Part shown: positions 11,229 to 29,120 of the stretch, in pieces
How the letters are laid out: each line of letters opens with the position of its first letter
Numbering within the stretch: position 1 is the stretch's first letter
DNA from: Phytoactinopolyspora mesophila
GTDB lineage: Bacteria > Actinomycetota > Actinomycetes > Jiangellales > Jiangellaceae
Assembly (NCBI RefSeq): GCF_010122465.1
Contig: NZ_WLZY01000001.1
Coordinates: 620,001 to 684,000, forward strand
Direction of reading: 5' to 3'
DNA length: 64,000 nt
The notes under the pieces: model-generated
The model's input: only the letters and a program-made list of their open reading frames with translations
What the model was told of the DNA's origin: nothing
Databases searched by the model: none
Program-made: the position numbers and the translations under genes

Positions 11229-11370
11229 GTGGAACACACCTCTCGTGGTTCAGCCGGTCGAGATTCCGCGGTGATCCGGTGCCGGGACGCGGTACGGATG
11301 CGGCGATTCGGCCCCTGGCCGGATCGCCTTCGAGAATACCGCGCAGCACGTACCATGCCGCCACCTCGGC

Positions 11371-11427
11371 GGTGATCGTCAGTGGGTTGTGGCCGTTGCC
11401 AACGACCACAACCCACTGACGATCACC
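11371..11427. repeat. 57-bp palindromic repeat, copy 1
   Basis: A near-perfect inverted repeat with 27-base arms (11371-11397 and 11401-11427, one mismatch) and a 3-base loop. The arm begins GGTGATCGTCAGTGGGTTGT. The same arm with one base changed recurs at 24961-25049. It lies between the start of the DUF1844-like gene and the end of the permease gene, and could end transcripts or be a dispersed REP-like element. Confidence 0.8.
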
Positions 11428-11467
11428 GACAAAGGGGATGACGAATCTGGGTCTTAGCGGGAGATGG

Positions 11468-18247: not shown

Positions 18248-20551
<2,304 letters not shown>

Positions 20552-20563
20552 GGGACGTTGGGG

Positions 20564-20687
20564 GACGCTGGGCGGGTCGAGAGTTCCGTCCTCGCCCAGC
20601 AGACTCGCTCGGAGAGGGGCTTCGCCAGCGGCCTCGCTCGCTGATGCCCGCCACGCCATGGACGGAACTCTCGACCCACCCAGCGTG
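20564..20687. repeat. Long hairpin element A with conserved loop core
   Basis: Left arm 20564-20591 and right arm 20660-20687 are complementary over 26 of 28 bases; the 68-base loop contains GACTCGCTCGG and CCTCGCTCGCTGATGCCCG. The loop aligns with those of elements B (reverse orientation) and C, while the stem sequence does not. A partial core (GTCGCCGATGCCCACCGCAC) follows near 20728. It lies in the 645-base gap between the convergent relA and DUF349 genes, which has no supported gene. Confidence 0.8.
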
Positions 20688-20806
20688 TCGCTTGGTCACC
20701 CAGGTCACGCCGGCACCGGCAGCATCGTCGCCGATGCCCACCGCACCATGGACGAACCTTCCGCCCACCCAGCGCCGCAGGTTCCCACCGGGGGCAAGGT
20801 CTGGCC

Positions 20807-20856
20807 GCAACAAGGAAGCTTGTGGTCGCCCTAGCAACAGTAAGCCTCCTTGTTGC
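20807..20856. repeat. Hairpin between elements A and B
   Basis: Arms GCAACAAGGAAGCTT (20807-20821) and AAGCCTCCTTGTTGC (20842-20856) pair over 14 of 15 bases around a 20-base loop. It is shorter than A and B and lacks their loop core. It could be a terminator for relA or the DUF349 gene, although no U-tract follows. Confidence 0.6.
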
Positions 20857-21027
20857 GCCCAGCCAACGACATCAAGCTTCCTTATGGCCGTGATGCCGGG
20901 TGCTTTTCTATGCGATGGCGAGGATGCTGGAGGAGAGGAGTACCTAGAGGGCGAGAACGCGCCGGTCAGGGACACCCGTGGGTCAGGCCCTCAAGCGGTT
21001 GGGACTCGGCAGGTGAGGGAAGTACGA

Positions 21028-21149
21028 GCGGGTGGGGCGATGGATCCCATCCGGGTGCGGTCGGGCATCGGCGAGCGAGGCACTTGGGGCGAAGCCCTTC
21101 CATCCCGAGTGAGTCCGCGGGCGGGGATGGGATCCATCGCCCCACCCGC
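21028..21149. repeat. Long hairpin element B with conserved loop core
   Basis: Perfect 25-base inverted arms (21028-21052 and 21125-21149) surround a 72-base loop. Read on the minus strand, the loop contains CCCGCGGACTCACTCGGG and CCTCGCTCGCCGATGCCCGA, the same core as in elements A and C. The stem sequence (GCGGGTGGGGCGATGGATCC at its start) is unrelated to the other stems. It lies just past the 3' end of the DUF349 gene. Confidence 0.82.
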
Positions 21150-21196: not shown

Positions 21197-22714
21197 TCAG
21201 CCGGCGAACTCGTCGCGCGCTTGTTCGGCCTGTTCGAGCCAGGTCCGCCGTGCCGCCAGTGCTTCTTCGGCTTCGCGCAGCTTGCGCTCGTCGCCCGAAG
21301 CACGCGCCTTCTCGACTTTCTGCTCCAAATCCGAGATGAGCGCCTGGAGTTGGTCGACGGTGTCCTGGGCACGCGCGTAGGCCTCGGGGTTGCTGCGCTT
21401 CCACTCGGAATCCTCGGCCTGGCGGATCGCGTCTTCAACCTTGCGCAGCCTGCCCTCGACGGTGCGGCGGGAGTCGCGGGGCACGTATCCGATCTGCTCC
21501 CAACGTTCCTGGACCGACCTGAGCTGGGCACGCGCGGACTTCCAGTCCTGGACCGGCAGCAGTGCCTCGGCTTCGACCAGGAGCTCTTCCTTCAGCCGCA
21601 GGTTGTTCAGTTCTTCGTCATCGCGCTGCGCCTGGTGAGCCGCGCGAGCTTCGAAGAAGGTGTCCTGTGCCGCACGGAACCTCTTCCACAGCATGTCTTC
21701 GACGTTGCGTGGTGCCGGACCGGCTGCCTTCCACTCGGTCATCAGCTCGCGGTAGCGCCGCGAGGTGCCGCCCCAGTCGGTGGAGGTAGCCAACTCCTCG
21801 GCTTCGGTGAGAATTCGCTCCTTGATGACCCGAGCCGTCTCCCGACGGTCGGCCAGCTCGGCGAAGTGTGCCTTGCGGCGCCGGGTGTAATGGGTGCGGG
21901 CGGTGGAGAAGCGTCGCCACAGAGCGTCGTCGGTGGCGCGGTTGAGACGTGCCAGCGACTTCCACTCGTCCAGCAATGCCCGGAGGCGATCGGCGCCGTG
22001 TCGCCAGTCGTTGCCTTCGGCGATCGCCTCGGCAGCTTCGGCGATGGCTTCCTTGCGTGCCTGCGCCTCGTCCTGGGCTTTTGCCCGGGCCTGCTTGCGC
22101 TCGGCGCGCCGCTCGGAGATGTGGGCGTCGACGACGTCCAGGCGCGCGGACAGTGCATCGAGATCGCCAACGGCCTTGGCGTCTTTCAGGGCGTCACGCA
22201 GGCGTCGCACGCCAGACGCGATCTCGTCCGGCGCGGCCGCTCCCGACTCAAGGCGTTGCTCCAGCAGGTCGACCTGCACAGCGAGATCGTCGAACTTGCG
22301 CCCGAAGAACGCCAGCGCTTGCTCCGGCTGGCCAACCTGCCAGGAGCCGACCGAGCGTTCGCCGTCCGCGGTGCGGACGAACACCTCACCCGCAGCATCT
22401 ACCCGGCCCCACTCGTTGGACGCGACCGTCTCGGGAGCCGGCCCGACCTGGTCGCCGGTCTCACCGCTCTCGCCGGTTGCACCTGGTGGGCCGCCGACGT
22501 CGCCGGATTCCGGGGCGTTCTGGAGCGCGTCGGTCTTCTCCGCCTCGGGCGGAGCCTCGGCGGCCTCCGAGGCGTCAGGGTCCGAACCTGTGCTCTCCGG
22601 GGCGGTGTTGTCGGGAGCGGTAGGGTCTGGTGTGGGAACCGGCTCGGCCGCAGTCGGTTCGTGATCGGCGGCCTGAACCTGCTCTGGCTCCGGGCTACCG
22701 GGAGTGTGCGTCAC
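21197..22714 (-). CDS. DUF349 domain-containing protein
   Basis: A 505-residue protein with an acidic, Pro/Glu-rich, disordered first 110 residues, then repeated DUF349 helical modules with the pattern RHGADRLRALLDEWKSL, SRRYRELMTEWKAAG and SARAQLRSVQERWEQIG, each ending in a Trp-containing helix. The C-terminal 90 residues look coiled-coil. The family is conserved in actinobacteria next to relA, and its biochemical role is unknown to me. It is convergent with relA and divergent from the metallo-hydrolase gene. Confidence 0.88.
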   Translation of the reverse strand: MTHTPGSPEPEQVQAADHEPTAAEPVPTPDPTAPDNTAPESTGSDPDASEAAEAPPEAEKTDALQNAPESGDVGGPPGATGESGETGDQVGPAPETVASNEWGRVDAAGEVFVRTADGERSVGSWQVGQPEQALAFFGRKFDDLAVQVDLLEQRLESGAAAPDEIASGVRRLRDALKDAKAVGDLDALSARLDVVDAHISERRAERKQARAKAQDEAQARKEAIAEAAEAIAEGNDWRHGADRLRALLDEWKSLARLNRATDDALWRRFSTARTHYTRRRKAHFAELADRRETARVIKERILTEAEELATSTDWGGTSRRYRELMTEWKAAGPAPRNVEDMLWKRFRAAQDTFFEARAAHQAQRDDEELNNLRLKEELLVEAEALLPVQDWKSARAQLRSVQERWEQIGYVPRDSRRTVEGRLRKVEDAIRQAEDSEWKRSNPEAYARAQDTVDQLQALISDLEQKVEKARASGDERKLREAEEALAARRTWLEQAEQARDEFAG

Positions 22715-24938: not shown

Positions 24939-24960
24939 ACTGACACAACCCCACCTGTTC

Positions 24961-25049
24961 GGTGATCGTCAGTGTGTTGTGGTCGTGATTTGGTGATCGT
25001 CAGTGTGTTGTGGTCGTGATCCAGAAACCACAACACACTGACGATCACC
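24961..25049. repeat. Palindromic repeat, copy 2, with duplicated left arm
   Basis: The arm starting GGTGATCGTCAGTGTGTTGT occurs twice in tandem (24961-24989 and 24992-25020). Its reverse complement follows at 25026-25049, so either left copy can pair with the right arm. The arm differs from copy 1 at 11371-11427 by a base or so. It sits exactly between the convergent hisS and symporter genes, a good place for a bidirectional terminator. Confidence 0.82.
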
Positions 25050-25067
25050 GGGAGAGTCAAAGCCGCA

Positions 25068-26929: not shown

Positions 26930-28687
26930 GTGCTCCGCACCCATGAGGCCGGTACGCTGCGTGCCGACCATGCCGCACAGACTGTCACGCTGACCGGGTG
27001 GGTCGCCCGGCGGCGCGATCATGGGGGAGTAGCGTTCCTCGATCTGCGGGACGCCTCCGGCGTCGCGCAGGTGGTGGTTCGTGACGAAGACGTCGCACAC
27101 GACCTGCGCGCGGAGTACTGCATCCGGGTCACCGGCGAGGTCTCCAAGCGACCTGCCGGAAACGAGAACCCGGCACTGCCCACCGGGGCAATCGAAGTGG
27201 TGGCTGAGACCGTAGAGGTGCTCAGCGAGGCCGACCCACTGCCGTTCCAGATCGACGACTACGTCGATGTCGGCGAAGAGGTGCGGCTGAAGCACCGCTA
27301 TCTTGACCTGCGACGCAGCGGCCCGGCCGCCGCCATCCGGCTGCGTAGCGAAGTGAACCGGGTCGCCCGCGAGGTCCTGCACGCGGAGAACTTCGTCGAG
27401 ATCGAGACTCCGACGATGACCCGATCCACCCCGGAAGGCGCCCGCGACTTCGTGGTGCCGGCCAGGCTGCGCCCCGGTTCCTGGTACGCCCTGCCCCAGT
27501 CTCCTCAGCTGTTCAAACAGCTGCTCATGGTCGCCGGCATGGAGCGGTATTTCCAGATCGCCCGTTGTTATCGCGACGAAGACTTCCGCGCGGATCGCCA
27601 GCCGGAGTTCACCCAGCTCGACGTCGAGATGAGCTTCGTCGAGCAAGAAGACGTCATCGCGCTCAGCGAGCGGATCGTCAGCTCGCTCTGGGAGCTCATC
27701 GACGTTCAGGTGCCCACACCCATCCCGCGGATCACCTACCGCGAGTCGCTGGACCGCTACGGCACCGACAAGCCCGACCTGCGCTTCGAGCAAGAACTCA
27801 CCGAAGTGACCAGCCACTTCGCCAACACCACGTTCCGGGTCTTCCAAGCACCATATGTGGGCGCCGTGGTCTTCCCGGGCGGTGCCTCCCAGACCCGCAA
27901 GGAACTCGACGGCTGGCAAGACTGGGCCAAGGCTCGGGGCGCCAAGGGGCTGGCCTATGTGCTCGTCGGTGCGGACGGAGAACTGTCGGGGCCGGTCGCC
28001 AAGAACCTCTCCGACGACGAGAAGGCCGGTCTCCCGGCGCTCACCGGAGCGGCCCCAGGTGACGCGATCTTCTTCGCGGCCGGACCGCGCAAGGCCTCAC
28101 AATCGCTGCTCGGGGCCGCGCGACTCGAGATCGGCAAGCGTGCCAAGCTGATCGACGAAGACGGCTGGGCGTTCGTCTGGGTGGTTGACGCACCCCTGTT
28201 CGAAGCCGTCGCCGAGACAGACGACGTCGCCGTCGGCGGCGGAGCCTGGACCGCTGTGCACCACGCGTTCACCTCACCTAAACCGGAATGGATCGACTCT
28301 TTCGAAGAGGATCCCGGCAACGCGCTCGCCTACGCCTACGACATCGTCTGCAACGGCAACGAGATCGGCGGCGGGTCGATCCGTATCCACCGTCGTGATG
28401 TCCAGCAGCGAGTCTTCGACGTCATGGGGCTCACCGCTGAGGAGGCACAGGAGAAGTTCGGATTCCTCCTGGACGCCTTCAAGTACGGCGCCCCGCCGCA
28501 CGGAGGTATCGCCTTCGGGTGGGACAGGGTCGTGGCACTACTCGCAGGCTCTGACTCGATCCGCGACGTGATCGCGTTCCCGAAGACCGGCGGTGGATAT
28601 GACCCGCTCACCAGTGCGCCCGCACCGATCACGGCAGAGCAGCGCAAAGAAGCCGGAATCGACGTGGTTCCTGACAGCGAGGAATAG
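26930..28687 (+). CDS. aspS: Aspartyl-tRNA synthetase
   Basis: A 585-residue bacterial-type class II AspRS. It has the N-terminal OB anticodon domain ([20 protein letters not shown]), class II motif 2 ([20 protein letters not shown]), the inserted GAD-type domain (about residues 290-400) and motif 3 ([13 protein letters not shown]). Bacterial enzymes of this type may charge tRNA-Asp alone or also tRNA-Asn; the window does not decide. The GTG 26930 start has AGAGGA upstream. Hairpin element C begins immediately after the stop. Confidence 0.95.
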
Positions 28688-28688
28688 G

Positions 28689-28790
28689 GAAGGGCTTGGG
28701 CCCGAGATCCGTTCCCGCCCGCGGACTCGCTCGTACCTCGCTCGCCGATGCCCGACCGAACCCTGAACGGATCTCGGGCCCAAGCCCTTC
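28689..28790. repeat. Long hairpin element C with conserved loop core
   Basis: Perfect 25-base inverted arms (28689-28713 and 28766-28790) surround a 52-base loop holding CCCGCGGACTCGCTCG and CCTCGCTCGCCGATGCCCGA. The loop matches elements A and B but is shorter by about 20 bases in the middle. The left arm starts at the aspS stop codon. The stem sequence is specific to this locus. Confidence 0.85.
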
Positions 28791-29120
28791 ATGCCCGCTG
28801 CGGTTCCCGTCTGGACAAGCACAAAAGAGTCCGTCGCCCGATGCCCGACCGAACCCTGGCCGCCAACCAGGTACCCCCACCCCTGTGGTTCTCGTCTGCG
28901 GTTCCCGTCTGGTCGAGCAAGAGGGTTCCGTTCCCGCCCGCGGACTCGCTCGTACCTCGCTCGCCGATGCCCGACCGAACCATGAACGGATCTCGGGCCC
29001 AAGCCCTTCATGCCCGCTGCGGTTCCCGTCTGGACAAGCACAAAAGAGTCCGTCGCCCGCGGACTCGCTCGTACCTCGCTCGCCGATGCCGGACCGAACC
29101 CGGGACGGATCTCAACTCCA
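28708..29120 (+). repeat. 133-bp direct repeat and third loop core after aspS
   Basis: Bases 28708-28840 recur at 28927-29059 with one mismatch (CCCTGAAC versus CCATGAAC). A third copy of the loop core follows directly at 29059-29104, with a shortened right side. The second copy keeps the right stem arm (28985-29009) but has lost the left arm. The 530-base gap from 28688 to 29217 contains no supported gene; its apparent open frames are repeat shadows. Confidence 0.8.

Follow-up and report, generated by a model that had tools for sequence, protein, structure and literature searches.

A dispersed, apparently undescribed family of palindromic repeats in Jiangellaceae, with stem arms that appear to change in concert

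Hairpins A, B and C and their relatives

Three long hairpins, designated A, B and C, lie 3' of the stop codons of a relA/spoT gene (18248..20551, plus strand), a DUF349 protein gene (21197..22714, minus strand) and an aspS-type class II tRNA synthetase gene (26930..28687, plus strand), respectively, in the window, which is the whole stretch of 64,000 nucleotides of Phytoactinopolyspora mesophila DNA that was analysed. Element A starts 14 nt after the relA stop codon and consists, on the plus strand, of a left arm of 27 nt (20565..20591) forming the outer helix, a core of the 68-nt type with an internal GGGGCTTCGCC hairpin insert (20592..20659) and a right arm (20660..20686); its arms pair over 27 bp with one mismatch, and a 3' half-core remnant (GCCGATGCCCACCGCACCATGG; 20728..20749, plus strand; a weak model match, E 0.29) lies downstream. 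Element B lies about 47 nt away from the stop codon of the DUF349 gene and is in the reverse orientation, so that its left arm of 25 nt (21125..21149), its core of the 72-nt type (21053..21124) and its right arm (21028..21052) are read on the minus strand, and its 25 bp are perfectly paired. Element C starts 1-2 nt after the aspS stop codon, with a left arm of 26 nt (28689..28714), a core of the 50-nt type (28715..28764) and a right arm (28765..28790), all on the plus strand and perfectly paired over 26 bp. Downstream of C, also on the plus strand, are a 3' half-core remnant (CCGATGCCCGACCGAACCCTGGCCG; 28838..28862; a weak model match, E 0.57) and two tandem truncated copies, of which C2 (28927..29009) comprises a core and the right arm of C but not a full left arm, and C3 (29054..29113) comprises a core and the beginning of a diverged right arm. 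The core pattern is above chance in the window, with 5 matches where 0.15 would be expected. The first-pass annotation had placed the three hairpins at these positions, with B reversed, next to relA, the DUF349 protein gene and aspS, and all of this held good.

Several hairpins of other kinds were seen in the window and at related sites. An ordinary 21-bp hairpin (20801-20862, 90% paired) separates A from B, near the midpoint of the gap between the convergent genes relA and DUF349. Between relA and DUF349 of Phytoactinopolyspora halophila, which is the site where the window carries A and B, there is a loopless perfect palindrome with 41-bp arms (L065:6554-6635). Other long perfect hairpins without the core are found at 11370-11428 and 24960-25050 of the window (beginning CGGTGATCGTCAGTGGGTTGTGG and CGGTGATCGTCAGTGTGTTGTGGT), and perfect hairpins that contain TGATC, comparable to these coreless ones, were seen in relatives at the orthologous positions (L349, L350, L146 and L064).

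An 18-mer from the core occurs 45 times, with up to two mismatches, in the 6.5-Mb genome of P. mesophila, and most of these matches are flanked by long arms, typically of 18-33 bp. When 19 copies were used to build a covariance model, this model matched the same genome 85 times and had matches in 18 of 22 Jiangellaceae genomes, which makes the family larger than the three copies first noticed. Copy number is uneven among the Jiangellaceae, for example 32 in G011, 27 in G001, 23 in G018, 4 in G003 and none in G015 or G019. No match outside the Jiangellaceae was found at 1e-5 in a sample of 148 genomes of the class, for which stricter filters were used. The window has no match in Rfam at the gathering score and no earlier description of the family was found by literature search, in agreement with the initial impression that no named element fits. 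Thus, A, B and C are apparently members of a dispersed and undescribed family of palindromic repeats of the Jiangellaceae.

Fold, covariation and placement

The elements are about 85-130 bp long, with an outer helix of about 23 bp. Among 124 elements extracted from fetched loci, the arms are mostly 20-28 bp long with a peak at 22-24 bp, the core lengths fall mainly into classes of 41, 47-50, 55-58 and 66-72 nt, and 83 of the 124 stems are perfect, a count obtained by an extraction procedure that favoured well-paired stems and penalised mismatches. Between the helices is an asymmetric internal loop with conserved strands, YCGCCC(A)G on the 5' side and ATGCCCGNCCGNACC or ATGCCCGCCACACCAT on the 3' side. 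Inside the core is a second, covarying helix, mostly of 2-8 bp, formed by pairings such as CGG/CCG, CAG/CTG, CGGC/GCCG, CGAAAGGC/GCCTTTCG and CGGAAGAC/GTCTTCCG among others; its mean length is 3.58 bp, compared with 2.09 bp when the 3' strands are dealt anew. The predicted RNA folds of A, B, C and two relatives all contain the outer helix, with z scores from -5.5 to -10. Loops that contain GGCGGTGAAGCATGC or its complement inside differing stems were noticed at L230 (Jiangella G006) and L344 (Phytoactinopolyspora alkaliphila, G004), and are possibly another family of hairpins with a conserved loop.

In an alignment of 104 matches, two-sided changes were found at all 18 of the modelled stem pairs, with 95.1% of cells paired and a covariation score of 0.839, compared with 0.189 for shuffled partners and at most 0.152 for partners slid out of register. 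This result supports the proposal that structure is maintained whatever the sequence. The most conserved stem positions are the innermost (CCGTCC in the left arm) and the middle of the stem is free, with several types of pair, including transversions, at each position. G-U pairs account for 17 of 1,785 cells (about 1%) summed over the covariation table, and the mismatches in 2,853 pairs of the 124 elements comprise 9 GT, 22 AC and 25 others, so wobble is not favoured in these stems; the mismatch penalty of the extraction lowers all of these classes alike. Stems of A, B and C are unrelated to each other, as had been noted, but the same cannot be said of the family as a whole, which has a degenerate stem consensus and whole stems common to many loci: the GCCGGTGGGAGGGGATGCCGTC stem recurs at different loci in two Jiangella species (G010 and G018), and the CCGGCAGATGGAGTCTCTCC stem, with close variants, is present in about a dozen copies at unrelated loci of the P. 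mesophila genome. Conservation of stems across copies, which the first-pass annotation had named as a refutation of its reading, is seen only in part, namely at the inner end of the stem and within certain subfamilies.

No fixed termini were found: the outer ends of the arms vary between copies and covary within them, with stems shared in some subfamilies. An ordinary MITE, that is, a deletion derivative of an insertion sequence whose fixed terminal inverted repeats have simply drifted apart, would also be palindromic, multicopy and patchy among genomes, but its termini should be fixed and its arms should diverge independently rather than in matched pairs, and the identities of the flanking sequences, where a target-site duplication was looked for, are at chance level. 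Such an origin is highly improbable, and the core does not appear to belong to a MITE with fixed ends.

Neighbouring genes were assigned by a simple GC3-based gene caller, which called both neighbours of 100 elements. Of these elements, 48 lie in convergent, 49 in tandem and 3 in divergent gaps between genes; the baseline for neighbouring genes, taken from DNA of this genus and of relatives, is 21 convergent, 56 tandem and 24 divergent pairs (p about 1e-9 for the convergent excess and about 1e-8 for the divergent deficit). By context, at least one gene 3' end adjoins 97 of the 100 elements, usually with a few to a few tens of nucleotides from stop codon to stem, and so the position after genes that had been remarked for A, B and C holds for the family. 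Orientation in tandem pairs has a mild bias (30 versus 19, p 0.15). No U-tract or long T run follows the stem of A, B or C, and none of the three was called in a terminator scan, which allows loops of 3-8 nt. The placement suggests putative terminator-like effects and would fit either hairpins that act bidirectionally at mRNA 3' ends or mere tolerance of insertions there.

Selection on RNA structure alone could be proposed as the reason for the matched arms, the elements being 3'-UTR RNAs (terminators, stabilisers or protein-binding hairpins) in which arms covary by ordinary compensatory mutation. Placement just past stop codons, with enrichment between convergent genes and avoidance of divergent ones, and strong predicted RNA folding are as expected of such RNAs. 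The scarcity of G-U pairs and the lack of wobble enrichment among mismatches are unusual for RNA helices, however, and the variety of pair types per position, with transversions, the missing U-tract and the weak orientation bias in tandem pairs also count against it.

Insertion, loss and change of the arms in place

One copy of the element (L255:2557-2662) is located within cobB, in frame, between the regions encoding the CbiA and GATase_3 domains. With both arms this copy is 105 bp long, whereas the core with one arm alone would be 77 bp and would break the frame. The two copies at this locus, 770 bp apart, were examined for an autonomous element, and this was rejected on finding that the gene at this place is cobB. 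A second copy within a gene (L044) also maintains an open frame, in a CydD-like protein between the membrane and ABC domains. Because stems are shared across loci and the cobB copy is in frame as a 105-bp unit, insertion of whole units is better supported than inverted duplication of flanking DNA, and the copies seem to move as whole hairpins.

The first-pass annotation had offered, as one of two readings, that the core alone moves and duplicates the flanking DNA in inverted form, so that each insertion would create a stem specific to its locus. Near-identical cores in the P. mesophila genome do bear outer arms that are close to unrelated, many copies are absent from orthologous sites of sister species, and at L014, the one strong case among the copies examined, 15 nt of the arm are repeated in the adjacent flank. 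Set against these observations are the whole stems that recur at unrelated loci, both in Jiangella and in the CACACCAT subfamily, the arm lengths centred on 22-25 bp, and the cobB copy, whose frame is kept by a unit of 105 bp but would not be by one of 77 bp. Neither arm resembles the orthologous intergenic sequence of sister species more than shuffled arms do, although the comparison is of low power, this DNA being near saturation. Inverted matches to arms in the right flanks mostly belong to tandem partial copies, which in the P. mesophila genome, where seen, repeat the core, the right arm and the flank. Sites with one arm, such as flank duplication would predict for empty sites in relatives, were found in Jiangella G019, but they carry the stem consensus of the family; they were accordingly rejected as empty sites and are read as remnants of deletions. 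Flank duplication is quite unlikely in light of this evidence.

At the sites of P. mesophila elements that were examined, congeners mostly do not have the element, and no clean empty site marking an insertion event was caught. Some orthologous sites are occupied by other long perfect hairpins. These hairpins, and the placement of elements where terminators lie, could indicate that elements insert into the centres of pre-existing palindromes such as terminators, in which case mobility would be confined to the inner stem and core, the outer stem being native. The L203 site is suggestive in this regard, with GCGGCCGC in one species and, in others, stems starting with GCGGCCGGG around two unrelated loops; this is a single locus, however, for which deletion is another available explanation, and the hairpins that occupy orthologous sites have no sequence relationship to the stems of the elements, which makes insertion into palindromes very doubtful as an account of the family. 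At L143, 3' of a mraY-like gene, one element apparently interrupts, by insertion, the core of another that is older and diverged; the left arm and half of the core of the older one are upstream, and the end of its core and its right arm are downstream.

Several insertions are common to multiple Jiangella species, which at the loci compared match at roughly 75-89%. The non-coding DNA beside these shared sites is hard to align; those arms that can be aligned without gaps differ at about 1-4 of 23-24 pairs, and the cores are identical or differ at one or two positions in most comparisons. Counted in non-overlapping contrasts, changes in the arms at the same locus were paired in 21 cases and unpaired in 6. 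At one site there is a matched 2-bp indel, the arms being GCGGGGTTCGGGGACGCCGTC in G018 and GCGGGGTTCGGGGGGACGCCGTC in G017, and in both cases the opposite arm pairs perfectly. The matched changes of pairs and the matched indel, with nearly identical cores, indicate that arms evolve in concert in place. That the core is kept at the same loci across species would be expected of a selected RNA, as would the 3 and 4 stem mismatches of two orthologues that have an 11-nt deletion in the core (intact orthologues have 0-2), but the paired indel would not, and over all copies the relationship of core damage to stem mismatches is weak (rho 0.15, p 0.10). On balance, RNA structure alone is a rather unlikely explanation.

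Within the P. mesophila genome, cores that are at least 97% identical (6 pairs) have outer arms that are 46% identical, compared with 31% expected from composition, and cores that are 92-97% identical (48 pairs) likewise have outer arms that are 46% identical. Divergence of arms around near-identical cores thus exceeds the rate of change in place in Jiangella, which leaves two readings: either the P. mesophila copies are old and other genomes have lost them, or movement of copies speeds up the change of their stems.

The L215 site in Jiangella G013 (L322) has the element and its 3' tail (TGGCTGGTCTGTCGGCTTGCGG) in the opposite orientation to the other Jiangella orthologues. Inversion of the spacer by template switching was considered and rejected on the grounds that the tail is inverted along with the element; this case could reflect either the unit having been inverted as a whole or a separate insertion.

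Proposed mechanism and comparison with known systems

The explanation considered probable is a family of non-autonomous hairpins that spreads as whole units and has a selected core, with arms that evolve in concert in place, likely by template switching. Each copy is predicted to fold into an outer helix, the conserved asymmetric internal loop, a short second helix and an apical loop. Copies would spread as entire hairpins, with both arms and the core, settling mostly just past stop codons and occasionally in frame within genes, and would often be lost by deletion. A change or indel in one arm of a resident copy would then reappear in the other arm, most likely when replication switches template between arms (quasipalindrome correction), and selection against broken stems may assist in keeping the arms matched. 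Template switching is an established route to the making and mending of hairpin arms, and between arms a documented way of homogenising them (PMC8794818, PMC8604942). From sequence comparison, quasipalindrome copying together with selection on the core is the best-supported mechanism for the arms of this family; for substitutions, strong selection acting on two successive point changes could give the same outcome, which would be less easily obtained for paired indels, although the indels examined were few. Conservation of the core and inner stem is proposed to mean that something recognises them, which could be a mobilising enzyme, a host function at mRNA 3' ends (termination or stabilisation), or both.

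Mobility of the elements would presumably depend on an enzyme acting in trans, and effects on transcripts may be expected from the position of the hairpins. The RAYT-type Y1 transposase (PF01797) was found in none of the 22 Jiangellaceae genomes by a search in which control genomes were positive. Reverse transcriptase (RVT_1) was considered as a required partner and rejected as such, being present in only 3 of the 22 genomes. An unlikely elaboration is that the mobile hairpin is recognised when folded as a single strand, the asymmetric internal loop serving as its recognition site, and that the second arm is re-made on the first at each transposition, so that stems drift fast and yet stay perfect; it rests on the divergence of arms in the P. 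mesophila genome despite near-identical cores, and, with RAYT absent and reverse transcriptase mostly so, it would require a kind of enzyme not recognised so far.

How long stems stay perfectly paired amid sequence change is an open question, to which the template-switch answer has so far rested largely on reconstructed histories of RNA genes. With dozens of copies per genome, orthologous copies among related species, near-zero wobble and at least one paired indel, this family is a natural test set for copying from arm to arm. The finding also gives this family of soil actinobacteria, for which none was found described, a structured and apparently mobile repeat, in positions where mRNA 3' ends could be set.

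Hairpins corrected by template switching share with these elements their homogenised arms and paired multi-base changes, but the published cases are RNA genes and yeast inverted repeats (PMC8794818, PMC8604942), whereas the present one is a dispersed bacterial repeat family. A structured RNA family would similarly have pairs that covary beyond a shuffled control, but not a G-U content of about 1%; an intrinsic terminator would similarly be a hairpin just 3' of a stop codon, but a U-tract would follow it. MITE-like repeats such as ERIC and Correia are, like these elements, non-autonomous, hairpin-forming and dispersed, with turnover between species, and differ from them in the fixed terminal repeats and target duplication that were not detected here. 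REP/BIME sequences are based on a palindrome of 20-40 bp with a conserved stem and are mobilised by a genome-encoded Y1 transposase (TnpA_REP/RAYT). They resemble the present family as short multicopy extragenic palindromes near gene 3' ends with tandem clusters; in contrast, the elements of the Jiangellaceae are longer (85-130 bp), have arms of about 23 bp that are variable between copies yet matched within each, enclose a core of 41-72 nt, and have no such transposase in any of the 22 genomes. Rickettsia palindromic elements (RPE), compared by description, are likewise able to sit in frame in protein-coding genes, as the cobB and cydD-like copies do, but the elements described here are mostly downstream of genes, have a conserved loop with covarying arms and belong to a different phylum. 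Thus, rather than being placed within REP, MITE or RPE, the family is filed as an apparently new one, REP/RPE-like and with an unusual evolution of its stems.
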